Part shown: one piece after another, positions 14,309 through 47,034 of the stretch
Numbering within the stretch: the stretch's first letter is position 1
How the letters are laid out: every line of letters begins with the position of its first letter
NCBI RefSeq assembly: GCF_000756305.1
Contig: NZ_JRFE01000026.1
Coordinates: 31,147-95,146, forward strand
Reading direction: 5' to 3'
Origin: Myxosarcina sp. GI1
GTDB taxonomy: Bacteria > Cyanobacteriota > Cyanobacteriia > Cyanobacteriales > Xenococcaceae
Length of the DNA stretch: 64,000 nt
Translations under genes and position numbers: made by a program
Notes under the pieces: model-generated
Database searches by the model: none
Told to the model about the DNA's origin: nothing
The model's input: the letters and a program-made list of their open reading frames with translations, nothing else

Positions 14309-14345
14309 AAAAATAAATAGATAGTGCGTAATGCATTCTTGCCTG

Positions 14346-14370
14346 CTCCCTCAAATGATATTTGAGGGAG
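14346..14370. terminator. Hairpin downstream of lysA
   Basis: CTCCCTCAAAT (14346-14356) and ATTTGAGGGAG (14360-14370) form a perfect 11-bp stem with a 3-base loop, 38 bases after the lysA stop. There is no T-run behind it, so it may be a 3'-end stabiliser or a weak terminator between lysA and cdaA. Confidence 0.55.
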
Positions 14371-14533
14371 ACGCTTTGCCATCTTGTCTCGTTGGTTTCA
14401 CAGTCTTTTAACTTCGTCAAGACAGAAGATAAGGTAAACTAATAAATTAAGATAGATTATTGTTTAGTTTCTAAACCTTAATTTTTTGAGGTTTTATTTC
14501 CCGCTCACCATTCGCAGCCGAGTACTTAATATA

Positions 14534-15445
14534 ATGTCGTTGTCGGGTTTTGTTCCTGACTTAAGTTGGATTCCTTCTTGGTTAGCCCATGGCGTTGACC
14601 TGGGCTTAGTTTTAGTCTTGAGTTACGTCCTGCTCTTAGTTATTGGCGAAGGCGAACGTCGTAGCTTATGGATGGTTCGAGGTTTTATCGTTCTGATGTT
14701 AGCTACGGTAATCAGTAGAGAACTGGATCTAACTCTATTAGGATTTTTGCTAGAAAAATTAGTTTTGGGCGCTGCCGTAGCTATGGCAGTCATTTTTCAA
14801 TCACAGTTTCGGCGTTTTTTAGAGCAAATAGGTAGAGGAGAATTACTACAGTTATTTCAATCTTCGGGAAGACCTGGAATCCAGTCCGATAGCGTAGTAG
14901 ATCGCATTGTCGAAGCAGTTAAAGAGCTATCTCAAAACCGCACGGGTGCTTTGATTTTAATGGAAACTACAGGTTCTTTGGATGAAGAAGATTTTGTCTC
15001 TTCAGGGGTAAGTTTGAACGCCGAGGTATCTAGAGAGCTACTGCAAACTATTTTTCAAACTACGACTTTGCTACATGATGGAGCGGTTTTAGTGCGCGGC
15101 TCGCGAATTGTGGCGGCGGCTGTGATTCTGCCATTATCAGAGCGTACCGCGATACGCCAATTGGGTACTCGTCATCGTGCGGCGATGGGAATTACTGAAA
15201 AAGTAGAAAGATGTTTGTGTATTGTAGTTTCCGAAGAAACAGGCTCAATTTCTCTAGCAGAGAAAGGAACGTTAAACAGACCTCTAACCAGCAACAAATT
15301 GAAAGAGTTATTGCAGGAGAGGTTTGCCACAACTGCCGAACGAGATGCAGTTCGCTTTAGTCGTCAACTGGGCTTTCAAGGCAAAGCTTTTTTAGCAAGT
15401 ATTTTTGGACGCAAATCTTCTGTCTCTCGCAAAAAAAATCAATAG
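14534..15445 (+). CDS. cdaA: Diadenylate cyclase CdaA
   Basis: The enzyme condenses two ATP into cyclic di-AMP at the membrane. Three hydrophobic segments lie within the first ~90 residues (LGLVLVLSYVLLLVIG, WMVRGFIVLMLATVI, LVLGAAVAMAVIFQ), followed by the DAC domain with the signature blocks LLHDGAVLV (DGA) and GTRHRAAMGI (RHR), and then SEETGSIS. I chose the ATG at 14534 (MSLSGFVPD), giving 303 residues; an upstream in-frame TTG at 14486 would add 16 unsupported residues. In many bacteria cdaA sits with glmM; here it lies between lysA and uppS. c-di-AMP typically controls potassium and osmotic balance. Confidence 0.93.
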   Translation: MSLSGFVPDLSWIPSWLAHGVDLGLVLVLSYVLLLVIGEGERRSLWMVRGFIVLMLATVISRELDLTLLGFLLEKLVLGAAVAMAVIFQSQFRRFLEQIGRGELLQLFQSSGRPGIQSDSVVDRIVEAVKELSQNRTGALILMETTGSLDEEDFVSSGVSLNAEVSRELLQTIFQTTTLLHDGAVLVRGSRIVAAAVILPLSERTAIRQLGTRHRAAMGITEKVERCLCIVVSEETGSISLAEKGTLNRPLTSNKLKELLQERFATTAERDAVRFSRQLGFQGKAFLASIFGRKSSVSRKKNQ

Positions 15446-15505
15446 AATCGCTCTCTTTCGAGCATTTCGATCTAACCTAGTTTATATTCAAATTTTTACA
15501 TACAG

Positions 15506-16270
15506 ATGAGCGTCGATCTTGCCTGGCAAAAACTACCCGTAGATTTAGATCCCAATCGGCTACCCAAGCACGTAGCAGCGATTATGGATGGTAATGGTCG
15601 CTGGGCGAAAAATAAAGGAAAACCGCGAATTGTCGGTCATCAAAAAGGTGTAGACGCGCTTAAGGATTTGCTGCGCTGTTGTAAAGATTGGGGAATTCCC
15701 GCTCTAACTGCCTATGCCTTTTCCACAGAAAACTGGGGCAGACCTTTAGAAGAAGTACAGTTTTTAATGACTTTATTCGAGCGTGTTTTACGGCGAGAGC
15801 TACAGGAAATGATGGCGGAGAATGTCAAAATTCGTTTTGTAGGTAATTTAACGGATTTACCAAAATCGCTGCGTCAAGAAATCGAACGCTCGATGCAAGA
15901 CACTGAAAATAATACGGGAACTCAGTTTACCATTGCCACTAATTATGGAGGTAGACAAGAAATCGTTCAAGCCTGTCGGGCGATCGCTTCCAAAGTCGAA
16001 CGGGGTTATGTTGAAGTAGAAAAAATCGATGAAAGCTTATTTGAAGAACATTTATATACAAAAGGAATTACTCATCCAGACTTGCTAATTCGCACTAGTG
16101 GCGAAATGCGGATCAGTAATTTTTTGCTGTGGCAAATAGCTTATGCTGAAATTTATGTTACCCCCACTCTCTGGCCCGATTTCGATCGTGCAGAGTTTTA
16201 CAAAGCTTTAACTACTTATCAGCAGCGTGAAAGGCGTTTTGGTAAGGTTAAATCTACAAATAATAAATAA
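15506..16270 (+). CDS. uppS: Isoprenyl (undecaprenyl) diphosphate synthase
   Basis: 254 residues, cis-prenyltransferase. The signature [16 protein letters not shown] (catalytic Asp in MDGN) is followed by [13 protein letters not shown], and near the C-terminus by [18 protein letters not shown] and [10 protein letters not shown]. The product is the C55 carrier lipid for peptidoglycan and exported polysaccharide, or another polyprenyl chain, since length specificity is not visible. It follows cdaA by 60 bases on the same strand, probably in one transcription unit. An RlpA-like gene follows after a 348-base gap. Confidence 0.95.
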
Positions 16271-31572: not shown

Positions 31573-33522
31573 TCAAAATTTGTGACTCCAAATTAATTCT
31601 TGGCGATCGCGCAATTCAAGGTTCACGACCTCTAGCGGTCGAGCAAAAATACTAGTAATATTATCTAAAAGCCCATAGTTATCATTGTTGTTTGCGTTAG
31701 AGTTCAGCGCGATCTCAGCTTGTTTGCGATATTGCGATTCTCCCCCAGGATAAATAACCGTTCCCTGACAGCTAATTTCTGCATAGTAAAGATTTTGCTC
31801 TACTTTTACTGGTGATGAAGAAGAATTAAAACATTCGCTGTTGTTGCTAGATACCGATACTGTTTCGGCATACTTGGGATCGATAGTATAAAAAACTCTT
31901 AAGGCAGCATTTTCTAATCCGCGAGCGGGGAAAGCCGATTTATTGATAATCGAAGCCGTTACTAATGCTTGGTTTCTGGCTTTTTTAATATCTGTTTCTA
32001 CATAAATTTGCTCTGTTTCTGGCGGCTCAAAAACAATATTGGCTGTAGGTTGACCGCCAAACTCAGCATACATTTTTGCCAACGCACCTGAAAACCCTGC
32101 GTTGTAGCCAATTGCCACTTCATTAGCAACCCAGTCGTTGCGATTGTCTTGCCAGTTGTCATGTTCGTCTGGTCCTCCTACCAAAGCACCAATCAACAGG
32201 TTGCGGCTTTGTGCGGGGTTGTTGCTATCGTTCGTCCAACTTCCATGAGCAGTTCGATGATGGGGATTTTGTGGATAATTATGACCATAGCCAATTAGAT
32301 AACTGCGGTTATGGGGATTGTTTCCCAAAATATAGTTAATCTGACTTACGCCAAAATTAAAATAGCGGTCTGCCTTAGCAATTTCACCACGCTCTCGCAA
32401 CCAGTCGCTATAGACAAAGCCGACAAAACTCGTATTGGCAGCTAGAGCCAGCGAACCCCATTTAGTCAAAAAAGCCAAACCTCCTGGAGTATACTGAATT
32501 TTTTCTCCCTGGTAGCCAGTAGACCAAAAATCCAACCAGGCTTCGGCTCTTTGCTGGTATTCTGGATCTTCAGTTTCTTTTGCCAACAAAACATAAACTC
32601 CGTAGGACTTATCGTCGGTAATAAAAGTATAGTTATAAGGTTTAGACATCGCCTGATATTCAGCGATCGCTTTACTTAAATATTCTCCACCATAACTGTA
32701 ATTTTGAGCTTGCTTGGCTTTATGCAGCCAAATCGCTCCCCAAACCAACTCGTCTTGATAGCCACTGTAAGATTTGTAATATGGTACGGCTGCAGTGATA
32801 CAGTCTGAATAAGCACCTCGATAGCGATCGGCAAATTCATAAAGACGTTCGGCTTTTGTTACTAACAAATTGGCATAATCAATATCGCCAGTTTTGCGAA
32901 ATAAAATTGAGGCTGAAGCTAGCGCGGCAGAAGTTTCCGAGGCTAAATCCGAACCAGGACAATTAGTATCTATCTTGTATGCAGGTCGTTCCATTTGATA
33001 GCGAACTACTTCTGCCGCCCCCCACCAATTATGATCTAGTTCGGCGTTGCCTACCTGTCCGTATAGTACGTAATTTTCTGGAGTATCGTTAGCAAAAGCT
33101 TTTAAAAAATAATCTGTTACCCATCTAATGTTTTTAGTTAGAGCGTCTAGCTGTCCTGAGTTCTGGTAAGCATCGTAATATTCAATTCCTCCCCAAGCCA
33201 GAGTAGTTGCACTAGCCGCCATCGGAAACCCAAACTTAACGTGATCTCCAGCATCAAACCAACCACCACTTAGATCGATGCCGACATCTGCACCATCGTC
33301 AATGGCAGCATTCCCGCGCCAGGGAACACGATTCCAGTCAGGTAGCTCTCCTGCCTGCTGCGCTTCATAAAATAGTATCGATTTTTGTAAGGCTTCGCCG
33401 TAGTTAAACTGAGTTGTGGATTTTAGCGGCAAAGATGAGATAAAAAATACTAGTAGAAAAGAAATGATAGTACCAATTTTTTTAGTGCTTTTTAAACGAG
33501 CGATCTTGCCAATAGGTTTCAT
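31573..33522 (-). CDS. GH9 endoglucanase with CBM3c-like C-terminus
   Basis: 649 residues. An N-terminal hydrophobic signal or anchor ([17 protein letters not shown], 16-32) exports it. The GH9 catalytic domain (about 38-490) has the nucleophilic-water Asp pair in [15 protein letters not shown] (D90, D93), the His block [11 protein letters not shown], and the catalytic acid in [11 protein letters not shown] (E468). The last ~140 residues ([54 protein letters not shown]) match the CBM3c module that accompanies processive GH9 endoglucanases. It cleaves beta-1,4-glucan. It is the last gene of a polysaccharide locus, which points to trimming or release of the cell's own polymer rather than feeding. 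Confidence 0.92.
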
Positions 33523-33545
33523 TACAGTTATGTAGTTTAATTAAA

Positions 33546-34661
33546 TTAAAATTCTCCTTGCCAACGTTTTAATTGGTCATGTTCGGCTAAAAATTTTCGT
33601 ATTTCTTCTAAATAAAGACGGCGATATTCTTCAAAACTGTATTTATTTACTTTTAGCCCAAAGCTGACAGGTTTTCCCTGTAAAATATCCGCAATTTCGT
33701 CGTTCACTGCTACAGAATAGTGACTGCCATCAAAAGTAAGATCGGGATTTTTAGTTATTCTTGAAGGTACGGTAAAATCGTACATCACATCGTAACTTTG
33801 AGCGAGTTGATAAGCTACTGTTAATTGGCAATCCATCAACCCCCTGCCATAGGTGTCATTGACTATACTCCAGGCTGAAACGGGCGGTATATAACCAATA
33901 AATTCAGCTTTGGGAAAGATTTGCCGTAAATTAGCAAACTGCTCGACGATAGAAAGATCGCATTTTTGCTGACTTTGAGGTTTGTAAAAATCGGGTCTGT
34001 ATATTGGCTGCTGCGCGAAATCTGCTACTTCAAAATTGCGATCGTAATAGTTACTGGGATCGGGACTTATTCCCAGCAATGTCATTACTGAAAATAAAAA
34101 AACATCAGCCGATAAATATGCTTGAGTAAAAGACTGGGTGGCAACTGTATTAACATCAAATGCTTCGCGTTCTTTACGAGTTTTAATGACAAAGTTTAGT
34201 CCATCTACACCTATGTACACTTTTTTTGGCGTTAATCCCGTTTCTTTTAAAAACTTGGCATAATCGATAAAATCTTCTATTTCACCCCCTTTGAGCGCAT
34301 AGTTGAAACAGTTTTGCTGTTGAAAATTAGAGGAATTCAAGGCAATAGCTCTAGAACTACCTAAAATTAAACAGTTATAGTTAACTTTATCTTTAGTTCT
34401 AAGATACAAATTGGTTTTAGTAACTCTTTCGTTAAAGGCAAAGTTTTTGCCAGTTAAGATATTTCCGTGACTGTACCAAAGAGGATCTACTAGCCAGTTT
34501 ATGCCGCTTATAGCACCCAACAGCAGCAAAACGAGCGAGCCATAAAGTTTAAAACTAAATCCCGAATTTGTTTTTTTAACCTCTGAATCTTTAGCCAATA
34601 TTGAAGAGTGTTTGTTTTTACCCGATCGCATTGATTTTAGGTTGGAGCTTTTGAGATTCAT
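33546..34661 (-). CDS. Membrane-anchored SGNH/AlgJ-like acetyltransferase partner
   Basis: 371 residues. A cytoplasmic tail of about 37 residues, one transmembrane helix (LYGSLVLLLLGAISGINWLV, 39-58), then a periplasmic domain. The candidate SGNH residues are Ser in ILGSSRAIAL (S103) and the Asp-x-x-His pair in TFDGSHYS (D311, H314). Proteins of this form act with AlgI/DltB-type MBOAT proteins to place acetyl groups on exported polysaccharides, as AlgJ/AlgX do for alginate. It starts 17 bases after the MBOAT gene ends, supporting a functional pair. The substrate polymer is unknown. Confidence 0.8.
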   Translation of the reverse strand: MNLKSSNLKSMRSGKNKHSSILAKDSEVKKTNSGFSFKLYGSLVLLLLGAISGINWLVDPLWYSHGNILTGKNFAFNERVTKTNLYLRTKDKVNYNCLILGSSRAIALNSSNFQQQNCFNYALKGGEIEDFIDYAKFLKETGLTPKKVYIGVDGLNFVIKTRKEREAFDVNTVATQSFTQAYLSADVFLFSVMTLLGISPDPSNYYDRNFEVADFAQQPIYRPDFYKPQSQQKCDLSIVEQFANLRQIFPKAEFIGYIPPVSAWSIVNDTYGRGLMDCQLTVAYQLAQSYDVMYDFTVPSRITKNPDLTFDGSHYSVAVNDEIADILQGKPVSFGLKVNKYSFEEYRRLYLEEIRKFLAEHDQLKRWQGEF

Positions 34662-34678
34662 ATTCTATGTATATTCTT

Positions 34679-36256
34679 CTAAAATTGAAAATATAAAAAT
34701 TCACTGACTCTGGTAAAGCAAAGTAAAGAAACTGAAGTCAAACCAGCAATAATAACCGACCAAATCTTGTTGGGTCGCCAAGCTAAAATCTGCCAGAACC
34801 TTTCTAGCCACAAAGGTCTGTTTTGAGTTGTTGGTTCGGTCAAGGTTGGATTGTAAATGCCCATCCACTGCTGGGTATTGGGGGTAAACCACGCGATTAA
34901 CAACAGCATTGCTACGCCAAAAGTGGCATATTTTTGAGAAATGCCAACATTGACAGTAATGCCCTGAAATCCCACACCCCAATTTCTTAAAAATTCCATA
35001 TGTGGCTCGAAAAAAGGCGGTAACTGTATGCCATTAGCACCAAACATCGCACCCAAAATTCCTAATGCAGTATCAAAACTACTGGCACGGAAAAACACCC
35101 AGGAAATAACTACGGCAATAAATGTTACCAACCATCCTACACCTCGTAGCAACCAACCATCATTTCTAAGATTATGTCCTAAATACTTGCGTAGCGAACG
35201 ATAGAGATGATTGACGACTAAATAGATACCGTGTAAACCACCCCAGAATACAAAAGTCCATCCCGCACCATGCCACAGACCTCCTAAAAGCATAGTGATT
35301 AATAAATTAGAATAGCGTCGCAATTCACCTCGGCGACTGCCACCCAAAGGAATATACAAATAGTCTCTAAGAAAATGAGAAAGAGTAATGTGCCAGCGTC
35401 GCCAAAAATCAACGATACTAATTGATTTGTAGGGAGAGTTAAAATTTAGCGGCAGTTTGATACCGAACATATATGCCGCACCAATTGCCATATCGGAATA
35501 ACCAGAAAAATCAAAATAAAGCTGTAAGCTATAAGCCAACGCGCCGATCCAAGCTTCAGAAAAAGTTAAATCTATTCCCTGAGCGGCAGCACCAAAAGCT
35601 AAATTGGAATATTCGGCAATGCGATCGGCTAAAACTACTTTTTTGAATAAACCTGCCATAAATACAGACAGACCGATCGCAAAAACTTGGCGATCGAAGT
35701 GATAAATAGAAGGTCGATTGAATTGAGGCAGTATCTCTTTGTGATGTACGATTGGTCCTGCTATTAACTGTGGAAAAAAGCAAACAAACAGCATATATTT
35801 GAGTAAGCTGTATTCTTTAGTTTCTCCTCGATAGGCATCGACTAAATAAGCTATTTGTTGAAATGTAAAAAATGATATAGCTAACGGTAAAACAATTGGC
35901 GGTAAATTGACTTCTGTACCGAGTAGTTGATTGACATTATTTATAAAAAAATTGGCGTATTTAAAATAACCAATCAATCCCAAATTAAAAATAACGCCTA
36001 AAATCAACACTGCTTTTTTAGCCGTTTTGCCTTCAAAGACATTGCCGAGCAATACACCCAATCCATAATTAAACAAAATGGAAATGATAATTATAGGTAA
36101 GTTTGCAGGGTTCCACCAACCATAAAAAAATAAAGAGGCAATAACTAATATTAAAACAGGAAGCTGTTTGTAATTACTTTTTTTTCCGAACCAGAAAAAT
36201 AAACTTAGAGTTATAGGTAAAAAAAGTAAAATAAATTCAAATGAATTAAAAAGCAT
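34679..36256 (-). CDS. AlgI/DltB-type MBOAT O-acyltransferase
   Basis: 525 residues with about eleven hydrophobic segments. The family core is present: SISFFTFQQIAYLVDAYRG, FFPQLIAGPIVHHKE, YFDFSGYSDMAIG, VDFWRRWHITLSHFLRDYLY, and LLGGLWHGAGWTFVFWGGLH with the conserved membrane His. It moves acyl (usually acetyl) groups across the membrane to an extracytoplasmic acceptor. The SGNH partner is directly downstream, and flippase and polymerase genes lie upstream, so the acceptor is most likely the polysaccharide made by this locus. A 202-base gap before it may carry an internal promoter. Confidence 0.92.
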   Translation of the reverse strand: MLFNSFEFILLFLPITLSLFFWFGKKSNYKQLPVLILVIASLFFYGWWNPANLPIIIISILFNYGLGVLLGNVFEGKTAKKAVLILGVIFNLGLIGYFKYANFFINNVNQLLGTEVNLPPIVLPLAISFFTFQQIAYLVDAYRGETKEYSLLKYMLFVCFFPQLIAGPIVHHKEILPQFNRPSIYHFDRQVFAIGLSVFMAGLFKKVVLADRIAEYSNLAFGAAAQGIDLTFSEAWIGALAYSLQLYFDFSGYSDMAIGAAYMFGIKLPLNFNSPYKSISIVDFWRRWHITLSHFLRDYLYIPLGGSRRGELRRYSNLLITMLLGGLWHGAGWTFVFWGGLHGIYLVVNHLYRSLRKYLGHNLRNDGWLLRGVGWLVTFIAVVISWVFFRASSFDTALGILGAMFGANGIQLPPFFEPHMEFLRNWGVGFQGITVNVGISQKYATFGVAMLLLIAWFTPNTQQWMGIYNPTLTEPTTQNRPLWLERFWQILAWRPNKIWSVIIAGLTSVSLLCFTRVSEFLYFQF

Positions 36257-36458
36257 GTTTCGGCAAAATCTACCTATTTTAAAAAATAGTTACAAAGTTA
36301 TTAAGTTAAATATTTTTTATATACTTAAGTATAGTTCAAGAAAAAGCTAACATATAAAAGTAAAGTTTAATATAAATTTATGATAAAGTAAAATTGAAGA
36401 TTTAATTAAATTGAATTACTTTGCTATATTTGTTCGTAGTTATAATTAATAGTTAAAT

Positions 36459-37742
36459 TTAATGTTTAGCTATAGCTGTTCTTCTATATAAAAACAAAAT
36501 TATTACCCATAGACTAAACAGCCTTAAAGAATCTGAAATTAAAGTCGCCCAAGCTGCACCCTTCCAAGAGTATATAGGTATCAACCAGATATTTAATAAA
36601 ACATTAATTACAGCAGCAGCAACCTGAACGAAACTACGAGCTTTTTGATGTCCCGCACCCGTAAGAGTATCGGCGGCTAAAAACTGGAATGAAGCGATCG
36701 CTGGTAATGGTGCCAACCACAGCAAAGCTGCAACTGCCGAGCGATATTCTTCTCCTAAAATTGCAGGTAATAGAGGAGCAAAAACAAAATAGCCTACAAC
36801 ACTAACAACTGCATACAATAAGATTATCGGAAACAGACGTTTAGCAAAACCCAGGCTATTTTTTATTCCCGAAGCTCCATGTTGAAAAAATCTGGTATAA
36901 GTAGCTGAAAACAATGCAAACAAAGGAACATAGCCTACATCGATAAAACGATATGCAGAGCCATATATACCAGTAGCGGTTAAAGTAGATAGACTGGCAA
37001 GCATTGTTTTATCCAGACTAGAGTTAACATTGTATGCCGAAGCACTAATAGAAAAGTAAAATCCTTCTTTAAGATTAGATTTCAGTTTTGAGAATAGGGG
37101 ATGTGGATAACCAGCCAGTTTATTGACCATCATGACTGAAAATATCCCCATAACTATCGAACTAATCAAATACAGACAGGCCCAAGTATTAGTAGAAGGA
37201 TTGGTAAAAAAAGCCCACAGGCAAAGAGCAGCCAACAGTTTTCCGCAGGTGCTAAATATGGCTAGATGTGCCACTTTATTAAGCATATTAACGGCGGTCA
37301 AAGCTTTGTAGCTAACATCAAGCAGTCCCAAAAAAATCAGATCTGCTAATAGTATTATTAATATTGTTAACAAAGAAATATTTTTAGCAAAAATTAGCGG
37401 TGAGAGTAATAAGAGAATAATTGTTACAGCAATACCGTTTGCCACCAATAAAAGTAAACAATTGCCCCAATAATTACTAAACGAAGCTTTATTTGTCGAT
37501 ACTTGCTGAACTAAAATATGTTCGCTTCCAAGAGCCAAAAAAGGAAAAACAATCGAGGCTAAAGCAGTTACTCCTACAAAAGAACCGTAGTTTTCGGCAC
37601 CCAAAACGCGGGCTACAATTATAAAATAACCTGCCTGCATTACTATGTTAAATAATTTAGCAAACAACATCCATAAAGTATCTTTAGCCAAATTACTGTG
37701 AAACAATTTGACAACCTTTGCTTTGGCTTTTGCTAAATTCAT
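36459..37742 (-). CDS. Wzx-like polysaccharide flippase
   Basis: 427 residues, about twelve transmembrane helices, with the MOP-superfamily opening LWMLFAKLFNIVMQAGYFII and ARVLGAENYGSFVGVTALAS. Flippases of this type turn lipid-linked repeat units from the cytoplasmic to the periplasmic face. It starts 24 bases after the Wzy-like gene stops, on the same strand. Substrate specificity cannot be read from the sequence. Confidence 0.88.
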   Translation of the reverse strand: MNLAKAKAKVVKLFHSNLAKDTLWMLFAKLFNIVMQAGYFIIVARVLGAENYGSFVGVTALASIVFPFLALGSEHILVQQVSTNKASFSNYWGNCLLLLVANGIAVTIILLLLSPLIFAKNISLLTILIILLADLIFLGLLDVSYKALTAVNMLNKVAHLAIFSTCGKLLAALCLWAFFTNPSTNTWACLYLISSIVMGIFSVMMVNKLAGYPHPLFSKLKSNLKEGFYFSISASAYNVNSSLDKTMLASLSTLTATGIYGSAYRFIDVGYVPLFALFSATYTRFFQHGASGIKNSLGFAKRLFPIILLYAVVSVVGYFVFAPLLPAILGEEYRSAVAALLWLAPLPAIASFQFLAADTLTGAGHQKARSFVQVAAAVINVLLNIWLIPIYSWKGAAWATLISDSLRLFSLWVIILFLYRRTAIAKH

Positions 37743-37766
37743 ATTGCTGAAGCTATATTGCGATTA

Positions 37767-39035
37767 TTAATATATAGCGTATTTATTATCTCTAGCTATG
37801 ATTAGGGAATAAGATATTGCTATATAGATAGCCCAAAAGGAGTTGTTCATTGTAGTAATAGTTCCTTCGGTAATATTGGATAACAAAATATAAGTTAAAA
37901 ACAGTAGCGGCCACAAGCCTTCTGGAGTATTGGTTTGGCGCAATAAAGCCAAAGATCTATATCCCGTACTAAAGAATCCTGCCAAAAATACTATTAAGCC
38001 GACAAATCCAATAGAAAGGCATAAATCTAAAAATCCGTTATGAGCATAAATAACTTCTACCGTCATTGCTAGTTGAACGTAAGCAGAAGGACCTTCCAAA
38101 CCATTCCAGAAAGCAGCTAAACCATACCCAAGCCAGGGACGAAGCTGAATTTCATCCCAGACATACTTCCAGATATAAGTACGACCAGATAGAGTTGCGT
38201 CTTTACCAAGTGCTATAAAAAAAGAATCGGATTCAATAAAACCTGCAAAAAACAAAAGTGCAGCAAATCCAAAAACAGTAGCAGCCAATATAGCAGAAAT
38301 TAGTATTTCATATCGCCAACGAAAGATACGATAAATTAGACAAAGCATCAACATGACGCCTAGTGTACCTAAAGAAGTCGTCGAATTAGATAAAACGACC
38401 AAAGCAATAAGAAATGCCAGCAACAGCCAGTAAAGCCAACTCATTTTTTCGTTTTTGAAGGCTTTTAATAAAAAAACAACTGCGCCTAGCACCATAATTG
38501 CCCCAAATTGGTTTTTGTGAGTAAATACACCTCGCAATGCTCCTTCATGAATACCGCCCATAATGCCATATTGAGGTAATGCAACTGCAAATAGACCACT
38601 GAGAATTGTCATTAGCCCGAAAGTGTAAGCAAAAATATTAAACTGTTCTTCAAGAGAATATCTGGTAGCTAGATAAAGCCCAAAAGCAGTAGTTCCAAGA
38701 GCATAAATTACGGTTTTAAAAGTTTCTGATGGGGATACCGACCAAAAGTAAGATAAACATATAATGGCTACAAGCAATAAAATTATTTGATTTTTAGCAA
38801 TGTAATAAATAACTCTTTTCCAACGCAGTGACAACAATACAAAACTTACTAAATAAATGAGCAGACAAATTTGAGCATTCAAAGCTAGATCGGCATCGTT
38901 TACTTTAAAACCGTCTCCTTCGCTAATACCACCCGTTAAAATTAATGGCGTAACTGCTCCTGATAAATGAAATAAAGCAAAAACAGAAAAAACTAATTCA
39001 AATAACTTTAAAGCTTTTCTATTAGTCTGAGCCAT
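37767..39035 (-). CDS. Wzy-like polymerase / O-antigen ligase family protein
   Basis: 422 residues with ten or more transmembrane helices. The O-antigen ligase/polymerase domain is recognisable by the central RGVFTHKNQFGAIMVLG (conserved H-K-N), then SNSTTSLGT and the large loop with GRTYIWKYVWDEIQLRPWLG, AFWNGLEG and EVIYAHNGFLDL. With the adjacent flippase and Wzc-like protein the likely role is polymerisation of lipid-linked repeat units; a ligase role cannot be excluded from sequence. Confidence 0.88.
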   Translation of the reverse strand: MAQTNRKALKLFELVFSVFALFHLSGAVTPLILTGGISEGDGFKVNDADLALNAQICLLIYLVSFVLLSLRWKRVIYYIAKNQIILLLVAIICLSYFWSVSPSETFKTVIYALGTTAFGLYLATRYSLEEQFNIFAYTFGLMTILSGLFAVALPQYGIMGGIHEGALRGVFTHKNQFGAIMVLGAVVFLLKAFKNEKMSWLYWLLLAFLIALVVLSNSTTSLGTLGVMLMLCLIYRIFRWRYEILISAILAATVFGFAALLFFAGFIESDSFFIALGKDATLSGRTYIWKYVWDEIQLRPWLGYGLAAFWNGLEGPSAYVQLAMTVEVIYAHNGFLDLCLSIGFVGLIVFLAGFFSTGYRSLALLRQTNTPEGLWPLLFLTYILLSNITEGTITTMNNSFWAIYIAISYSLIIARDNKYAIY

Positions 39036-39125
39036 AATAATTTTTAAACGAATTAAACAGGTTTGTTCGATCGCTATAATACTATAGTTTTAAAAACTAA
39101 AAACAGTGAGTCGCTCTTATCTATT

Positions 39126-40142
39126 TTAACGATAACTATAAAACTTGTTTTTTTTAAAAGGAGAACTAGACTTTTTTTTTGTTAAAATAAAATTTATTTT
39201 GGGTTTCAAAATAGCAAGTAGTTTTAAAATAACGTCTTTAGAAAGATAAGGATTGAGTATAATTTCTTTAATGCTATCGAGCATTTTTTTGCTTTTACAA
39301 GATTCAATAAATCGATAATAAGATAGTCTTTCTTCAAATAAAACTAAATTTTTTTCTATAGCTTGTAGCAGTTGAGGATTATTTTTTAAAGCTTTATTAG
39401 CGATAAATTGCCTGGCGATCGTACAAGATTCTTGTAAATAAGCAGTTGGAGTTCGATCGCTAAGAGAGGACTGCCTGAGACGATAAAAGTAGTAAGATTG
39501 CGGTACAAACAAAAGTTTGCCCTGTTGGAGCAAACATTCTAAATACAAAGTAAAATCTTCTCCAACCTTTAAGTTTTCTCGATACTTAATTTTGCGATCG
39601 AGTAAAAATTTACGGTCGATTAATGGTTTGATATAACCAAAGCTCCAATTCGAGCCTAAATTAATTGGATTTAAGCGATCGGATTCAACAAACTGAACCG
39701 CATCGATCGCTTTTGGCGATACAATGTGGTGTTTCCCTTCAATTAACAAAGTACTCCAAGGATTGCGATCGCCATCATTAATCAAATAAAGGTCATCTGC
39801 AACTAAATGTGCTTTATGTTTTTGGGCTGCTTGTAACAGTTTTTCTAATCTGGTACGAGAATACCAATCATCGGCATCGAGAAGAGAAATCCAGCTGCCA
39901 CTAGCCTCTTCTATTCCACGATTGCGGCTAATACTAACACCTAAATTTTTTGGGTTTTTAATTACTTTAAGTCTGCTGTCATTATAACTAGTGGCAATTT
40001 GATAGGTATTATCATAAGAACCATCATCAATGACTATTATTTCAAAGTTAGAATAGGTTTGATCTAAAACAGATTCAATAGCTCGATCGACGTACTGTTC
40101 GCAATTGTAAGCAGGTATAATAACCGAGATTTTAGAACTCAT
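39126..40142 (-). CDS. GT2 family glycosyltransferase
   Basis: 338 residues, soluble or membrane-associated GT-A enzyme. The N-terminal nucleotide-sugar domain has ISVIIPAYNCEQYVDRAIES, IIVIDDGSYDNTYQIA and the DXD-like ISLLDADDWYS. The C-terminal part, with the basic tail KPKINFILTKKKSSSPFKKN, may bind the membrane surface. It lacks the transmembrane channel of cellulose or hyaluronan synthases, so it adds a sugar to a lipid-linked unit rather than making the polymer alone. It is the only glycosyltransferase in the locus inside this window, so others must be encoded elsewhere. Confidence 0.9.
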   Translation of the reverse strand: MSSKISVIIPAYNCEQYVDRAIESVLDQTYSNFEIIVIDDGSYDNTYQIATSYNDSRLKVIKNPKNLGVSISRNRGIEEASGSWISLLDADDWYSRTRLEKLLQAAQKHKAHLVADDLYLINDGDRNPWSTLLIEGKHHIVSPKAIDAVQFVESDRLNPINLGSNWSFGYIKPLIDRKFLLDRKIKYRENLKVGEDFTLYLECLLQQGKLLFVPQSYYFYRLRQSSLSDRTPTAYLQESCTIARQFIANKALKNNPQLLQAIEKNLVLFEERLSYYRFIESCKSKKMLDSIKEIILNPYLSKDVILKLLAILKPKINFILTKKKSSSPFKKNKFYSYR

Positions 40143-40272
40143 AATTTAACTTATCTTTTTATTGCAAGCGCGAGCGGCAATTGAGCGCGTTATTATTTTC
40201 GATCGAACAAACCTAAATCAAATATACAATATTTTGTCTAATTTTGATTTACAACTGAAATAAATTATATTG

Positions 40273-40301
40273 CAAATTTGACATATGATTTTGCAAATTT
40301 G
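40273..40301. promoter_or_regulatory. Two helically phased palindromes upstream of the GT2 gene
   Basis: CAAATTTG occurs at 40273-40280 and again at 40294-40301. Each copy is self-complementary within the wider direct repeat TTGCAAATTTG. Their centres are 21 bases apart, two turns of B-DNA, as for a protein binding two sites on one face. Outer arms TTTTGTCT (about 40228) and AGACAAAA (40304-40311) add a looser inverted repeat. They lie in the 238-base gap before the GT2 gene. Confidence 0.4.
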
Positions 40302-40380
40302 TCAGACAAAACATAAATTTAAAATTAATAAATATTTGACTATTTAACTTCAACCAAAAATATCAACAAATAAATACTAA

Positions 40381-42057
40381 TTAATAGGTTAATTTAGAGG
40401 TTAAAAACAAAGGTTTGCCATCCATATATTTTGGTATTGAAGCTCCCATTAATTCTAAAATCGTTGGAGCTAAGTCCACAGCTTCTGCTGCTGGCAAATT
40501 ACAACCAGGCGAGATGTTTGACCCTTTTGCTATTAAAAATCCCTGGCTTTTGTGTCCTCCTGCTCGGCAATGAGTTAAAGGTCCGATACGACCTAAATCG
40601 GGACTATCAATAACATCGGTAATAGGTTCGCTCCACAGTACGACAAGATCGGAATCAGGTAGTTTGGGATTTGTATCTAAAGGATTAGTGCGAGTTCTGA
40701 CTACCTGTTTGACTACAGATTTTCTCGTTCTGCCATCTCGTAGGCGATAGAGAATTTCTGTTAATTCATTACACAGAGATTCATACTCAGAAACATCGAC
40801 AATACCATCTCTTTCTCGTCCCTTGAGGTTGATTCTGAGATGTCCGTTGGTAAATGCTGGTAAGGCAAAAACTTTCATCGTCGACCAAAGCTGCGAATAC
40901 CACATAGCAGGCATCCAGCTCATAGCCAATTCTGGTTCTGTGCCATAATCCATTAAGCCATAAGGAGATAAAAGTCCATGCTTTCTTCCTGTAAGGAATT
41001 TTTTATGAGTCCAGGTTCTAAATAGTTTTTTGATGGGATTGGGTTCGTAAATCTGACTCCAGATTTCTCCAGGCCAAGAATTTCTTACAGGCTTAGTTGT
41101 TATCGATGCGGGAGTTCGGTCAAGTCTGCCAGAAACCAGTGCGGGTTTACCAAAACTGTAGCGATAGAGCAATTCGGGTAAAACTGCCATGCTCAGTAAA
41201 TCGGTAAAGTTAGCTGCCATACCATGAACGGCAAAGCAGATAATATTAGCATCGTGAGGAGCTTCAGCTATAATTTCACCAATCGCGCGATCGACTTTTT
41301 GATAGGTAGCTAGTAAAGGATCGCTCTTAGTACCATTTTTAGTAAGATGGCTGTAGAGAGGATGATCTGGCTGACTGTGGTTGTAGAGATCGTGACCGAT
41401 AGTGTGAGTCTCACCAAACACCATTAAAAATAGATCCCAGGCTTCGCGCTGAAGCAATTCGCGAGCGATCGCTGAATGTCCCCGAATACTCTGGTCTACT
41501 GCTTGTTGAATCCATTTTACATATTCTGGCTGCCACCAAAGCCCATTGTCATTATGTAAAACGGGATTTTTACCATATTTATTAATAATTTCGCCAAACA
41601 ATTCTGGTGGGTTGGAATCGCTTACTGTATAGGGATAATGCCCCCCCCAACCCAAAATTTGCGCTCCGTTTACTCCTTCTGATAAAACAGTTACTGGTAC
41701 ATCAAAAACCGCTACTTTATAATCATTTCCTAAAGCGTAAAAAGGTGGATACTCTCGATAGTCATAGCCACTTTTAACTACATCGCAAATAATTTCGTAA
41801 TTTTGCGGATTATAACTAACTGTATCCCAATAGCCGAGTTTATCGGCACGACAGCCTGTCGAAAATGTTGCCCATAGTGGTTCCGTTGTCGAATATTCGG
41901 TAGGAATGCCGCAGTAGTTAACGGTGTTATTTAAACGGCTATAAGTTCCTTGTAGACTAATCTGTTTGAGATTGGGTAAATGTCCTTCAGACATCCACTG
42001 TTCGACTAATTTTGGTTCGGCAGCATCCAAACCAATAGCAATAACTGGCTGCTTCAT
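40381..42057 (-). CDS. Alkaline-phosphatase-superfamily phosphodiesterase / nucleotide pyrophosphatase-like protein
   Basis: 558 residues, no signal peptide or membrane helix. Superfamily features: AIGLDAAEPKLVEQWMSEG with metal ligand D11, TTEPLWATFSTGCRADKLGYW where Thr57/58 would be the nucleophile, then FGETHTIGHDLY, FAVHGMAAN and CRAGGHKSQGFLIAKG supplying further metal ligands. Members cleave phosphodiesters or transfer phospho-groups. Its place between Wzc and the glycosyltransferase suggests work on a nucleotide sugar, a lipid-phosphate or a phosphorylated glycan, but the substrate is not known. The lack of an export signal implies cytoplasmic action. Confidence 0.82.
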   Translation of the reverse strand: MKQPVIAIGLDAAEPKLVEQWMSEGHLPNLKQISLQGTYSRLNNTVNYCGIPTEYSTTEPLWATFSTGCRADKLGYWDTVSYNPQNYEIICDVVKSGYDYREYPPFYALGNDYKVAVFDVPVTVLSEGVNGAQILGWGGHYPYTVSDSNPPELFGEIINKYGKNPVLHNDNGLWWQPEYVKWIQQAVDQSIRGHSAIARELLQREAWDLFLMVFGETHTIGHDLYNHSQPDHPLYSHLTKNGTKSDPLLATYQKVDRAIGEIIAEAPHDANIICFAVHGMAANFTDLLSMAVLPELLYRYSFGKPALVSGRLDRTPASITTKPVRNSWPGEIWSQIYEPNPIKKLFRTWTHKKFLTGRKHGLLSPYGLMDYGTEPELAMSWMPAMWYSQLWSTMKVFALPAFTNGHLRINLKGRERDGIVDVSEYESLCNELTEILYRLRDGRTRKSVVKQVVRTRTNPLDTNPKLPDSDLVVLWSEPITDVIDSPDLGRIGPLTHCRAGGHKSQGFLIAKGSNISPGCNLPAAEAVDLAPTILELMGASIPKYMDGKPLFLTSKLTY

Positions 42058-42118
42058 GGTTATTTATATTTATTATCGGTTTTAAGTTTAAGGTTAAGTA
42101 TGGTAAAAAACCGATTAT

Positions 42119-44332
42119 TTATGCAGTTGCTATTTTTGAACTACTTTTAGATTTGGATGTAGATTTATCAAAATAGTTTTTGCTGTACTTGGCATGATAA
42201 GAATAGCGATCGAACTCGCTGGCTTTAACTCCATTAATTACCATGCCTAAAACTTTTTGTCCGATATTAGCATTGTTCAAAGTTTCTTGCGCCAGCTCGG
42301 CACTTTCGTGTTCGACTACACCAGGACGAGTAACAAATAAAATACCGTCGGCTAATTTGCTAAGAGTGAGTACGTCGGCAGTTACTGGCAATGGAGGAGC
42401 ATCAATGATAATTGTGTCATACTCTTTTCTCGCTCTAGCAACCAATTCGCTCATTTCTGCCGAATCTAAAAGTGCTAGAGGATTGGGAGCAGTTACTCCA
42501 GAAGTTAACAGATCTAACTGTTTCATCGGTCTGGATACCAATTCTTCTAAAGCAGTTTTATGAGCGATCGCATCTTTTACTCCAAGCTTATTATCTACTT
42601 GCCACAGTTGATGTTGAGAAGACTTCCTTAGATCGCCATCAACTACTAGTACCCGACGACCTAATTGAGCCATAGCTGCCGCTAGATTTGCTGCAATAGT
42701 AGATTTTCCCTCTCCTGGAACGGAACTGGTAAGCAAAATAACTTTTGGTTGTCTCTTGAGATCGAGAAATTTTAAGTTAGCCTGAATCATACGGTAAATT
42801 TCACTGGTAAAAGAGTCTGGCTCTTCTCGAACGATAATTCCACCAAGATCTGTCTTTAAAGAATCTAAAGGAATAATCCCTAAAACTTTGTAAGCAAACT
42901 TCTGTTTGATTTCGGGAATTGTTTTGAGAGTACGATCCTGCATTTCTAACAAAACTGCCGTTAAATTTGATAGTAACAGTCCTATTAGAACGCCCATTAT
43001 CATTAAAGCCATTCTGCCAGTAGAACCTTCTTCTGGAACTCTAGCAAGTTCGATTACTTCGGCATTACCAGTTTGTTGATTGACTAATAACTGTAGTTCT
43101 TGCTGATTGCCTAAAAGAGTTTCGTAGGTTTTACGAGCCGATTCTACTTCACGTAGCAACTCTTGTTCTGTTTTTTCTAGTTTTGGCAACTGTTTGGCTC
43201 GATCTAAATATGCTTTTTGATAATTGTATAAAGCGGAAAGTTGGGTTTGAAGACTAAGCTCCTCTATTTTTAAATTGATAAATTTTTCTAACTGATTTTC
43301 TTTTAATCGATCGCTTTCTAATAAGCCTTCAGAAACTTTTGTTCCTACATACTTAGTAACCAACTGCTGAAGTTGTTGGTTTAAATAACCTTTTTTCTCT
43401 AACAGGCTTTGAACGCTAGGATGATTGTCGTTAAATCGTTGGCGTTCTTGTGCCAGTTGGCTTTCGGTAGTGGTTAACTGTTCTAGAATACTGCGCACGG
43501 TAGGAGTACTGCCTAATTGATTGGCAGCGATCGCCTGTTTCAAATTTAAGCCTAGTTGACTCTGCAAGCTCGATGCTTGTGCTTGCGTTCCCTGTAACTC
43601 CGCTCCAGTCGTTGAAATCTGACGGTTTAGCGTACCGAGATCGTTGACCAAATTTCTTTTTTCTTCTTGAAGATCGATAACTTGGTTTTTTTCGTAAAAT
43701 TGTTGTAAGTTTGATTCGATATTTTTGAGTTTGGTTTCAACTTTGGGAATCTGGTTATTAATAAAGCTATCGGCATTGACTGTATCGGCTTGATTGCTGC
43801 GAATTTGTTCTTGAATATAAGTATCCATTAAAGTATTGACTACTTTAGCAGCTCGGTAGGGGTCTGGATGCTCGTAAGAAATAGAAATTACGTCAGTTCC
43901 ACCAACAATCTCTACATCTAAACTGTCTTTCAGAGCTTTGATATCGAGCGGCTTTCCCTCTTTGTCTTCCAGTTTTAAACTATCGATAGTTTGCTGCAAA
44001 ACTGGCTCGGAAACTAGCCGCAGTTTTTCCGTGCTTAAAGGTGTTTGATTATTTAATAAAGAATTTAATTGCTGCGTTTCTCCTCCCAATCCCGTTAAGT
44101 TATCAATAGAATTTTGTTTAAATAATATTTTGCCTTCAGATTTATAGGTCTCTTTTAATAAAGTGCTTAAAAAAGCTGTCGCACCAATCGTCAATAAAAA
44201 TACTCCCAAAGCCGGTAGCCAACGCCTTCTAAGTTTTCGTAAATAGCTTTCTACGTTGACATCAATTGCTTCTCTTCGTTCTGTATTATTGGCACGCTCG
44301 TATGCAAGTTTATCTGTTTGTATATTGGTCAT
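42119..44332 (-). CDS. Wzc-like polysaccharide co-polymerase / BY tyrosine kinase
   Basis: 737 residues. A Wzz-type N-terminal half has transmembrane segments near residues 38-57 and 450-470, separated by a long periplasmic coiled-coil region (about 180-420). The cytoplasmic BY-kinase follows: Walker A SSVPGEGKST (536-545), Walker A' VLVVDGD (561-567), Walker B IIIDAPP (641-647), and a C-terminal tyrosine cluster at 710, 712, 716 and 720. Such proteins control polymer length and export by cyclic autophosphorylation. It is the first gene of the minus-strand polysaccharide locus. Confidence 0.94.
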   Translation of the reverse strand: MTNIQTDKLAYERANNTERREAIDVNVESYLRKLRRRWLPALGVFLLTIGATAFLSTLLKETYKSEGKILFKQNSIDNLTGLGGETQQLNSLLNNQTPLSTEKLRLVSEPVLQQTIDSLKLEDKEGKPLDIKALKDSLDVEIVGGTDVISISYEHPDPYRAAKVVNTLMDTYIQEQIRSNQADTVNADSFINNQIPKVETKLKNIESNLQQFYEKNQVIDLQEEKRNLVNDLGTLNRQISTTGAELQGTQAQASSLQSQLGLNLKQAIAANQLGSTPTVRSILEQLTTTESQLAQERQRFNDNHPSVQSLLEKKGYLNQQLQQLVTKYVGTKVSEGLLESDRLKENQLEKFINLKIEELSLQTQLSALYNYQKAYLDRAKQLPKLEKTEQELLREVESARKTYETLLGNQQELQLLVNQQTGNAEVIELARVPEEGSTGRMALMIMGVLIGLLLSNLTAVLLEMQDRTLKTIPEIKQKFAYKVLGIIPLDSLKTDLGGIIVREEPDSFTSEIYRMIQANLKFLDLKRQPKVILLTSSVPGEGKSTIAANLAAAMAQLGRRVLVVDGDLRKSSQHQLWQVDNKLGVKDAIAHKTALEELVSRPMKQLDLLTSGVTAPNPLALLDSAEMSELVARARKEYDTIIIDAPPLPVTADVLTLSKLADGILFVTRPGVVEHESAELAQETLNNANIGQKVLGMVINGVKASEFDRYSYHAKYSKNYFDKSTSKSKSSSKIATA

Positions 44333-44912
44333 TTTTATGTAGACTGCTTGAAGTACGATTTTAACTTATATTGCCCTGACTGCTGGTTCTAAAAAACTTT
44401 TCTGACATTTTTTGGTCTAAATTCTTTATAAACGATAAATTAGGGAGTTAGCTTAAAGTTTTGATAAAGTTGTAGCTAGATAAGCGTAAATTTGTCAAAA
44501 AGTCTCCTGCGGTCGCTAACTATCATCTAAATTGTTTCCATTATTGACCACAAAACTCAAACCAGCAAACTGCGTTTTTATTACTACAGTTACTAGATGT
44601 TTATTAGCAGCAAATATTAGAGAGAGCGAGCAAATAATTATAAGTATTATCAACCGTCAAAATTCAGTCTTGTAACGAGAATTTAAATTGTTATCGTCAA
44701 AGGTTAAATAATTATTTTATGTTACGATAAAACGACTCAATTTGCTCGTTCTAAAAAGATTGTCAAAAAATATTTATGACTGTCTACAAACTGGAACAAT
44801 TAGCGCACTTATAGTGTTTGGGTTTTGTAGAATATAAATACAAATTTATTAAAATTACTAGCAAATTTAGTATATTTTTAGTAAAAATTTTTTGACTTTT
44901 AAGATTTTTTTT
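44333..44912. other. Divergent promoter region of the polysaccharide locus
   Basis: 580 AT-rich bases between the Wzc-like gene and a divergent secreted-protein gene. TTATCGT near 44693 and ACGATAA near 44725 form a 7-bp inverted repeat about 30 bases apart. No riboswitch, hairpin terminator or extra gene was recognised. Its length suggests substantial upstream control or long leaders. Confidence 0.4.
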
Positions 44913-45356
44913 ATGAAACTGCTTCATGACAGTATTATTAAATCAATAGCTATAGCAATCGGCATTTTTGTTGTTGGTGTTGGAGAAGATAGCAATAGTT
45001 TATCTGTCTTTGCTCAAACAAAAATAGACGGTACAGTTCGAGAAACTATTAGTGGACTTTCAGGCGGTTCGGTTGATAGCAAGGGTTGCGGTTTTATTGC
45101 CAATACACCAAATCATACTTTTAACATTCCAGAAAGAGTTGACTATATGCGTCTTACCTTGCAGACTTCTGGCGGACAACCAACGCTTTTGGTTTTAGGA
45201 CCAAAGCCTGAAGATCGTTTTTGCGTTCTGGGAGAAGCATCTCGATTGCAGCCAGAAATTTCTGGAGTTTGGGAAGCAGGAAAATATCAAATTTATGTAG
45301 GCGATCGCTTGGGAGAAAACTACCAGTTTACTCTAGATATTTCTACCAGAAATTAA
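44913..45356 (+). CDS. Secreted protein of unknown function
   Basis: 147 residues from ATG 44913; an upstream in-frame TTG at 44892 would add seven residues ahead of the signal peptide. The hydrophobic stretch (IAIAIGIFVVGVG) and the end of the leader at VFAQT look like an export signal. The mature part (DGTVRETISGLSGGSVDSKG, GQPTLLVLGPKPEDRFCVLG, GKYQIYVGDRLGENYQFTLD) is a beta-rich domain with two Cys. Similar small exported beta proteins occur in cyanobacteria. No function can be assigned; its divergent position next to the EPS locus may be coincidental. Confidence 0.7.
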   Translation: MKLLHDSIIKSIAIAIGIFVVGVGEDSNSLSVFAQTKIDGTVRETISGLSGGSVDSKGCGFIANTPNHTFNIPERVDYMRLTLQTSGGQPTLLVLGPKPEDRFCVLGEASRLQPEISGVWEAGKYQIYVGDRLGENYQFTLDISTRN

Positions 45357-45360
45357 ACAC

Positions 45361-45741
45361 TTATTCGTTGTAAGTATTTTCTTCAATCTGTTGGGGTGAA
45401 ACTTCCACTGCATTTACGTCAATAGTGCCAGGAGGAGTAATACGGCTAAAACCATCTGATTCTACTTGCAGCGCCTCTCCACAGCTAGGGCATCTAAATT
45501 CCGTGTTTTTAAATCCAGTAAATTCGTAGCTACATACAGGACATTCATCTTGGACTAATTTGCGTTTGAGCCACCATTGAAAGCCCCAAAAAGCAATAAT
45601 CGGTGTGATTAGCAATACGCACAACAAGATTAAAAATCCGTTGACTACCCACCCCAAACCTACTGACGCTAAAAGAAAAGCAATTAAAATAAAGCTCAAC
45701 CCGCAACCAAGCCCTGAAGTATTGGCGTTATATCGAAACAT
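45361..45741 (-). CDS. Membrane protein with C-terminal zinc ribbon
   Basis: 126 residues from the internal ATG at 45739-45741 (MFRYNANTSGLGCGLS). Two hydrophobic segments (LSFILIAFLLASVGLGWVV, FLILLCVLLITPIIAFWGF) are followed by a zinc ribbon CPVC...CPSC and a Thr/Pro-rich acidic tail. A longer open frame starts at a TTG (45882), but that start touches the terminator hairpin at 45884-45907, so the shorter protein is preferred. The function is unknown; membrane-tethered zinc ribbons often serve as small adaptors. Confidence 0.75.
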   Translation of the reverse strand: MFRYNANTSGLGCGLSFILIAFLLASVGLGWVVNGFLILLCVLLITPIIAFWGFQWWLKRKLVQDECPVCSYEFTGFKNTEFRCPSCGEALQVESDGFSRITPPGTIDVNAVEVSPQQIEENTYNE

Positions 45742-45883
45742 TTGTAGAAAGCGATCGTTCACGGCTATAAGTGCTCTCTGGTAAGATTGTCTAAATGATT
45801 TGGCGACCTGTAAATTATATTTTAACGCGAGGCGATCGGCTACACACTTTACGTAATAAAAACTAAAGCTTACAAAATACAAA

Positions 45884-45939: not shown

Positions 45940-47034
45940 TTAACCAGATGCCATTGGTTTGCGAGCTACCCAATACTTACTAACAAAATGATTTGTGACT
46001 CGAACCTCAGTAAATCCCGCGTTTGTCAATCGCTCTTGCAAATCGTCAGTAGTGTAGTGTCTGTAATAAGGTTCGTGGAAGATAGCAGGAAAGTTTTCCA
46101 TCATCACTCTAAAGTCGGGAGAATCATCTGCCTGCATAGAATCACAGACAACTAACGTACCTCCAGGCTGAATCACCCGAAATGCCTCGTTAATTACCTG
46201 CTGGCGAACATCACCAGGCAACTCATGAAATAAGAACACCGAAGTAACAGCATGAAAGTAATTGTCTAAATAAGGTAATTCTTCGGCATTAGCCTTTAAC
46301 AACTGCGGTAGTTCTCCAGGAATTTCTGAAAGTAACTGATTGGCTTTTCGTAAATAAGCAGGAGATAAATCGACTCCAAATAAAGCTGCTTTTGGTAACG
46401 CACCGCGAATCATTCTCAAAGTACGACCAGTACCACAAGCAAGATCGAGAATTTTTTGCTGTTGTGGGGGAACATCAAAAGCAGTCAAACTTTGTTTCAG
46501 AGGAGCGATAATTCGCCGACGCATCGCATCTGCCGAACCGTTAAACAAAATCTCTACCTGAAGATCGTAAAGATTGGCAGATAAATCGCTAAGATAGCCA
46601 TCTGTTTGATAGTGAAAATTTTGTAAGTAATAGGAAGGATATCCTTCTCGGTCGATTTTAGCGTCAAATTGCTGATATTCTCTGGTTTTTAATCTATCCC
46701 AGATTTTGAACATATCTAACCATACTTCGGGATAATAGCGAAAGAAATCCGACCAAGGATTATCGAATAGCAAGCTGGTAGGATAAATTCCCTGTCGCGC
46801 CTCCTGCCAGTCAATTTCTTCTAGCTTTTTTAGTCTTTGCTGGAGTTTTTCCAAAATTTGAGGTGAAAGCGGTTGGCTTTTATGGTAGCGTTCGGGTACA
46901 AAGGTATCAGTCAGGCGATCGCTCACGAGTTTATGAGCAAAACCAAAAACTTTCTTACTTTCTTGAAAGCCTTGGTACGCGACTTTAGTTAAAGAGTCGG
47001 GGACAAATTGATCTATGTTCGGAGTCGATTGCAT
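45940..47034 (-). CDS. Class I SAM-dependent methyltransferase
   Basis: 364 residues. An N-terminal region of about 170 residues (with PWSDFFRYYPEVWLDMFKIW) precedes a Rossmann methyltransferase domain with motif I ILDLACGTGRTLRMIRG (D198-G203), ALFGVDLSPAYLRKA, and the downstream FHAVTSVFLFHELP and GGTLVVCDSMQ blocks. The domain is of the Methyltransf_11/UbiE type. The substrate is unknown; the long N-terminal extension is a feature of a cyanobacterial group. No membrane segment. Confidence 0.87.
   Translation of the reverse strand: MQSTPNIDQFVPDSLTKVAYQGFQESKKVFGFAHKLVSDRLTDTFVPERYHKSQPLSPQILEKLQQRLKKLEEIDWQEARQGIYPTSLLFDNPWSDFFRYYPEVWLDMFKIWDRLKTREYQQFDAKIDREGYPSYYLQNFHYQTDGYLSDLSANLYDLQVEILFNGSADAMRRRIIAPLKQSLTAFDVPPQQQKILDLACGTGRTLRMIRGALPKAALFGVDLSPAYLRKANQLLSEIPGELPQLLKANAEELPYLDNYFHAVTSVFLFHELPGDVRQQVINEAFRVIQPGGTLVVCDSMQADDSPDFRVMMENFPAIFHEPYYRHYTTDDLQERLTNAGFTEVRVTNHFVSKYWVARKPMASG

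Follow-up and report, generated by a model that had tools for sequence, protein, structure and literature searches.

Introduction

In the succinoglycan (exo) system of Sinorhizobium (Rhizobium) meliloti, ExoZ and ExoH provide acetyl and succinyl substitutions, and the secreted enzymes ExoK and ExsH lower the length of the product (PMC4443731). The Wss operon of Pseudomonas fluorescens joins MBOAT and SGNH acetylation genes to an endoglucanase (PMC10302187). Among cyanobacteria, the XcsA-XcsB-XcsC system couples glucan export to an endoglucanase (PMC12430437), and the synechan (xss) locus of Synechocystis is a Wzx/Wzy cluster that has no OPX gene of its own (PMC8205485). Cyanobacterial EPS genes are usually scattered (PMC4594306).

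Here we describe a compact locus in Myxosarcina sp. GI1, a sponge-associated cyanobacterium whose assembly comprises 76 contigs (7,069,859 bp, N50 195,043; PMC4510999). The locus lies in a 64,000-nucleotide stretch of DNA that was analysed as a whole (the window). A sequence-only reading of the window had proposed eight same-strand genes that combine a Wzx/Wzy exporter with an acylation pair and a GH9 endoglucanase. Our searches return the same coordinates and families, with the SGNH assignment made from motifs and gene position. In the open-licence literature we found no description of a GH9 enzyme with an MBOAT/SGNH pair in a Wzx/Wzy locus.

Results

Eight open reading frames, all on the minus strand, occupy positions 31573-44332 of the window:

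42119-44332 (-), Wzc-type polysaccharide co-polymerase/tyrosine autokinase (TIGR01007), with orthologues in genera g2 and g8
40381-42057 (-), AlkP-superfamily protein (PF01663), 558 aa, no TM segment, apparently non-canonical active site
39126-40142 (-), GT2 glycosyltransferase (Pfam)
37767-39035 (-), Wzy-type polymerase of the Wzy_C/O-antigen ligase family (PF04932)
36459-37742 (-), Wzx flippase (PF01943)
34679-36256 (-), MBOAT O-acyltransferase (PF03062), with WHGAGW histidine and C-terminal FLYFQF
33546-34661 (-), SGNH-like putative partner, membrane-anchored, assigned from GSS(R/K) and DGxH motifs and its position after MBOAT
31573-33522 (-), GH9-CBM3c endoglucanase, predicted secreted (PF00759, E=4e-142), with D90, D93 and E468 kept
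44892-45356 (+), 45361-45882 (-) and 45940-47034 (-), flanking genes outside the system, upstream of wzc and also found in g8

All three hallmarks of a Wzx/Wzy-dependent locus, namely Wzx, Wzy and a PCP/Wzc protein, are present in Pfam/NCBIfam searches. The 737-aa Wzc has two TM segments, a Walker A motif (GEGKS) and a tyrosine in its C-terminal tail; it matches the BY-kinase/PCP profile TIGR01007 at 150 bits, above the cut-off, and is 60-72% identical to its orthologues in g2 and g8. The GT2 protein is the sole glycosyltransferase of the locus and its least conserved product. An in-locus priming enzyme and OPX protein are usual for Wzx/Wzy loci, though not obligatory. The same searches detected neither a priming phosphoglycosyltransferase nor an OPX protein among the eight genes, and the rest of the genome holds eight copies of PF02397 and two of PF02563, so both functions are presumably supplied in trans. 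One candidate source is contig C14, where an OPX-Wzc pair (a second Wzc) accompanies a priming transferase. A scan for promoters and terminators gave a site count that was not above that of shuffled sequences.

The acylation pair carries the strongest functional indication after the pathway type itself. All 20 MBOAT proteins compared keep the WHG histidine and an FxYxxF motif (FLYFQF; FLYFEF in one) at the very C-terminus. PatA auto-acetylates the tyrosine of this motif, from which its SGNH partner is supplied, and the authors apply the acyl-shuttle model to further MBOAT-SGNH pairs (PMC12148441). The invariance of both motifs, together with the PatA precedent, strongly suggests that the exported polymer is O-acylated in the periplasm; by precedent, the acyl group is probably acetyl. 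The SGNH-like gene adjoins the MBOAT gene, and its putative identity rests on this position and on motifs GSS(R/K) and DGxH, which are invariant across 19 homologues. Its product has no family match in Pfam or PDB, PDB profile searches with the SGNH and AlkP alignments returned nothing convincing, and a single-sequence structure prediction reached a pLDDT of 40.

GH9-CBM3c enzymes act on beta-1,4-glucan and are classically active on cellulose. The GH9 protein of the locus, encoded 23 bp beyond the SGNH-like gene, begins with a hydrophobic segment and has the characters of the T. fusca E4 type: a GH9 domain, catalytic residues D90, D93 and E468, and a C-terminal CBM3c. Pfam did not report the CBM3c domain. 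Its presence is supported by phmmer: one alignment, to T. fusca E4, runs from residue 38 to 606 and extends through the cellulose-binding domain of that enzyme, and another pairs residues 492-608 with the B chain of 2xfg (Endoglucanase 1), which is a separate chain (E=1.9e-13). As a separate observation, residue 94 (window numbering), which adjoins the catalytic base, differs with gene context: all ten unlinked g8 enzymes (L113-L122) read DAGDN, against the canonical DAGDH of the linked forms.

The AlkP-superfamily protein belongs to a family with relatives in 69 of 291 genomes of the order; in cyanobacterial polysaccharide loci its genes mostly lie near GT2 genes, often in tandem. Residues D11, H218, H222, H278 and H502 are kept, as is E59 in 36 of 37 homologues. 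Compared with a canonical PF01663 phosphodiesterase, which has a Thr/Ser nucleophile and an SDHG metal ligand, nearly all 37 homologues have another residue in place of the aspartate before HG, and 13 of them differ at the nucleophile threonine (motifs placed by hand). The active site thus appears remodelled and non-canonical.

The eight-gene set is conserved outside Myxosarcina. Both genomes of g2 (putatively Stanieria), G001 and G008, have the exact gene order, with protein identities to the window of about 40-73% (GT2 ~41%, most 59-68%, MBOAT 73%). The genes flanking these two clusters differ from those of the window. Because the order is identical in two genomes of another genus despite the different flanks, the arrangement is more than chance. 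In g8, whose labels (Pleurocapsa, Waterburya, Hyellaceae) come from named contigs that carry the same GH9, the cluster is present whole or reduced in 12 genomes, in every case without a linked GH9. Several of these genomes also have the window's upstream genes beside the cluster, and so share its chromosomal position. Ten of the 12 encode a full-length GH9 orthologue at an unrelated site; in G007 and G019 the orthologue is missing. Conservation of the exact order, put forward by the sequence-only reading as a check, is therefore seen in G001 and G008 and not in the 12 g8 genomes. That reading had also held that GH9 and MBOAT/SGNH genes in unrelated contexts would count against it. Such a context is what we find for GH9 in ten g8 genomes, and not, within the family, for the MBOAT/SGNH pair; outside the family, the pair is also part of other polysaccharide loci. 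Overall, the Wzx/Wzy locus with its MBOAT/SGNH pair and attached GH9 holds as a unit in two genera.

Across the 27 family genomes, 13 carry both GH9 and the cluster, two the cluster only, none GH9 only and 12 neither (Fisher p = 6e-6, a value that shared ancestry makes too strong). Trees of GH9 and of MBOAT are concordant, both giving ((g1,g8),g2), with g1 the genus of the window. This topology agrees with a published 1209-gene tree in which GI1 pairs with Pleurocapsa PCC 7319 and Stanieria stands apart (PMC7381351). Because the concordant trees place the linkage before the genus split, the simplest account is that the GH9 linkage looks ancestral and was broken once in g8. A recent arrival of GH9 at the locus is less likely for the same reason, and two independent gains are possible.

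The cluster itself appears modular. The core predates GH9 and the acylation genes: Wzc-AlkP-Wzy-Wzx occurs in genome G107 of family f15 (45-63% identity), and g5 genomes lack MBOAT but carry Wzc, GT2, AlkP and Wzx. In f32 genomes, one longer locus holds tandem AlkP genes, glycosyltransferases, a Wzx-like gene, SGNH and MBOAT. The inner genes are eroded in g8: GT2 is frequently lost, and in G017, G022 and G023 the cluster is reduced to Wzc-Wzx-MBOAT-SGNH. We rejected plain loss of wzy in G013, G017, G019, G022 and G023, because each has the orthologue in a second locus (L222-L226) beside a paralogous wzx and, in most cases, GT4, PIG-L deacetylase and FkbM methyltransferase genes. In the tree, these second-locus Wzy proteins nest among the g8 cluster Wzys. 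G015 (putatively Pleurocapsa PCC 7319) has carbamoyltransferase, SxtJ-family (PF19588) and GDSL-like proteins inserted between wzx and MBOAT (L169:7370-11127). Separately, the AlkP of G025 is internally deleted and the Wzy of G019 truncated (L174:3828-4070, L173:8357-8881), which may be signs of decay inside the cluster. Overall, the pattern resembles that of capsule types: the repeat unit seems to diversify while the export and acylation genes change less.

Pfam searches found no cellulose synthase and no BcsB or BcsC in the eight-gene locus. Contig C22 encodes two BcsA-like cellulose synthases (L187:6685-8940 and 13672-15894), which lie on opposite strands with some 5 kb between them, one with a PilZ match. 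They score 469 and 445 bits against the CelA profile TIGR03030, both below its curated cut-off of 699 bits. The proposal that the modules are attached to a Wzx/Wzy exporter instead of a cellulose synthase is thus correct for the locus but not for the cell. BcsA-like synthases occur in 24 of the 27 family genomes, including genomes that lack this GH9.

Discussion

We consider it somewhat probable that the locus encodes a Wzx/Wzy module for a capsule or sheath, in which the polymer is O-acylated in the periplasm and a secreted GH9 endoglucanase cuts the matrix. Lipid-linked repeat units would be primed and partly assembled by transferases encoded elsewhere, with GT2 adding at least one sugar. 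Wzx would flip the units, Wzy would polymerise them under the control of Wzc, and the polymer would leave through an OPX outer-membrane protein encoded elsewhere. In the periplasm, MBOAT would pass the acyl group onto the tyrosine of its C-terminal motif, chemistry to which the conserved motifs strongly point, and the SGNH protein would then move it to the polymer. The GH9-CBM3c enzyme would cleave beta-1,4-glucosidic bonds within the cell's own matrix, thereby trimming, releasing or loosening it. Both its substrate and its biological role are putative. We favour the cell's own matrix, where candidates are a Wzy polymer with a cellulose-like backbone or cellulose made by the C22 synthases; a beta-glucan polymer may be proposed tentatively. 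The unlinked GH9 in all g8 genomes and its absence from G007 and G019 count against a capsule module of this kind, as does a locus with one glycosyltransferase and no priming enzyme. A more specific version, in which the dedicated GH9 and MBOAT/SGNH proteins yield an acetylated, cellulose-backbone sheath that GH9 cuts to free baeocytes, is very unlikely.

The polymer is where a closely overlapping explanation parts from the capsule module. The product could be a non-glucan or variable heteropolysaccharide, built by strain-specific genes of the sort seen in capsule typing, and GH9 might cut only a minor linkage, or else a different glucan of the matrix. The low identity of GT2 (41-52%) and its absence from several g8 genomes, the carbamoyltransferase insert in G015, and the five g8 wzy orthologues that sit with another wzx, GT4, PIG-L and FkbM genes make this a real contender, if one with less than an even chance; a variable polymer alone does not explain why GH9 is retained. 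It is possible, though rather doubtful, that GH9 instead serves cellulose made by BcsA/XcsA-like synthases, as XcsC and BcsZ do, and shares expression with the capsule module only because both contribute to the sheath. The classical cellulose activity of the enzyme type and the two C22 proteins, with counterparts in most family genomes, are compatible with this idea, and in T. vulcanus the endoglucanase is encoded away from the cellulose synthase (PMC12430437). However, such synthases also occur where this GH9 is absent, the enzyme instead tracks the Wzx/Wzy cluster, and both synthases fall short of the curated score.

It is unlikely that GH9 acts as a catabolic cellulase, or is a hitch-hiker, with no role alongside its neighbours. 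Its unlinked position in g8 and the further GH9 paralogues dispersed among cyanobacteria would fit such an enzyme. Yet gene order and tight spacing are kept across two genera at ~65% identity, every family genome with a full-length GH9 has the cluster, and the linkage predates the genus split in the tree and hence is lasting.

For baeocyte-forming cyanobacteria, whose polysaccharide genetics have apparently received little attention in the literature we found, the locus offers a defined and conserved set of sheath or capsule genes. It bears on whether a cellulase can partner a Wzx/Wzy polymer as BcsZ partners cellulose. Two genera have GH9 linked to the cluster, a third has it unlinked, and two genomes have lost it, a natural contrast that makes the question answerable by comparison.

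Succinoglycan synthesis employs AT3 acyltransferases and a GH16 glycanase. The window locus has enzymes of other families, MBOAT/SGNH and GH9-CBM3c, and the exo locus, unlike ours, has its own priming enzyme and many glycosyltransferases. The two are alike in having a Wzx/Wzy pathway, a tyrosine-kinase co-polymerase, acylation proteins and endoglycanases, those of succinoglycan being secreted (PMC4443731). Placing acylation and glucanase modules on a Wzx/Wzy exporter is not new, since succinoglycan already unites the pathway with acylation and a beta-glucanase. Wss differs in being synthase-dependent, with no Wzx/Wzy; its WssD is BcsZ-like rather than GH9, it has extra AlgX/AlgF-like acetylation proteins, and the BcsA/B/C cellulose synthase that marks it is absent from our locus. 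Xanthan is likewise an acetylated Wzx/Wzy product and has a beta-1,4-glucan backbone, but acetylation there is by the PFAM family 3 acetyltransferases GumF and GumG, and the descriptions of the gum proteins that we consulted list neither a glycanase nor an MBOAT/SGNH pair. Organisms that degrade xanthan have GH9 xanthanases (PMC10881899), which show that the GH9 family can cut decorated Wzx/Wzy polymers. Of the cyanobacterial systems, XcsA-XcsB-XcsC is synthase-dependent and absent from the window locus, and in synechan sulfotransferases take the place of O-acylation, the paper mentioning no acyltransferase or cellulase. The locus described here combines known parts in a new way and does not amount to a new type of machine.
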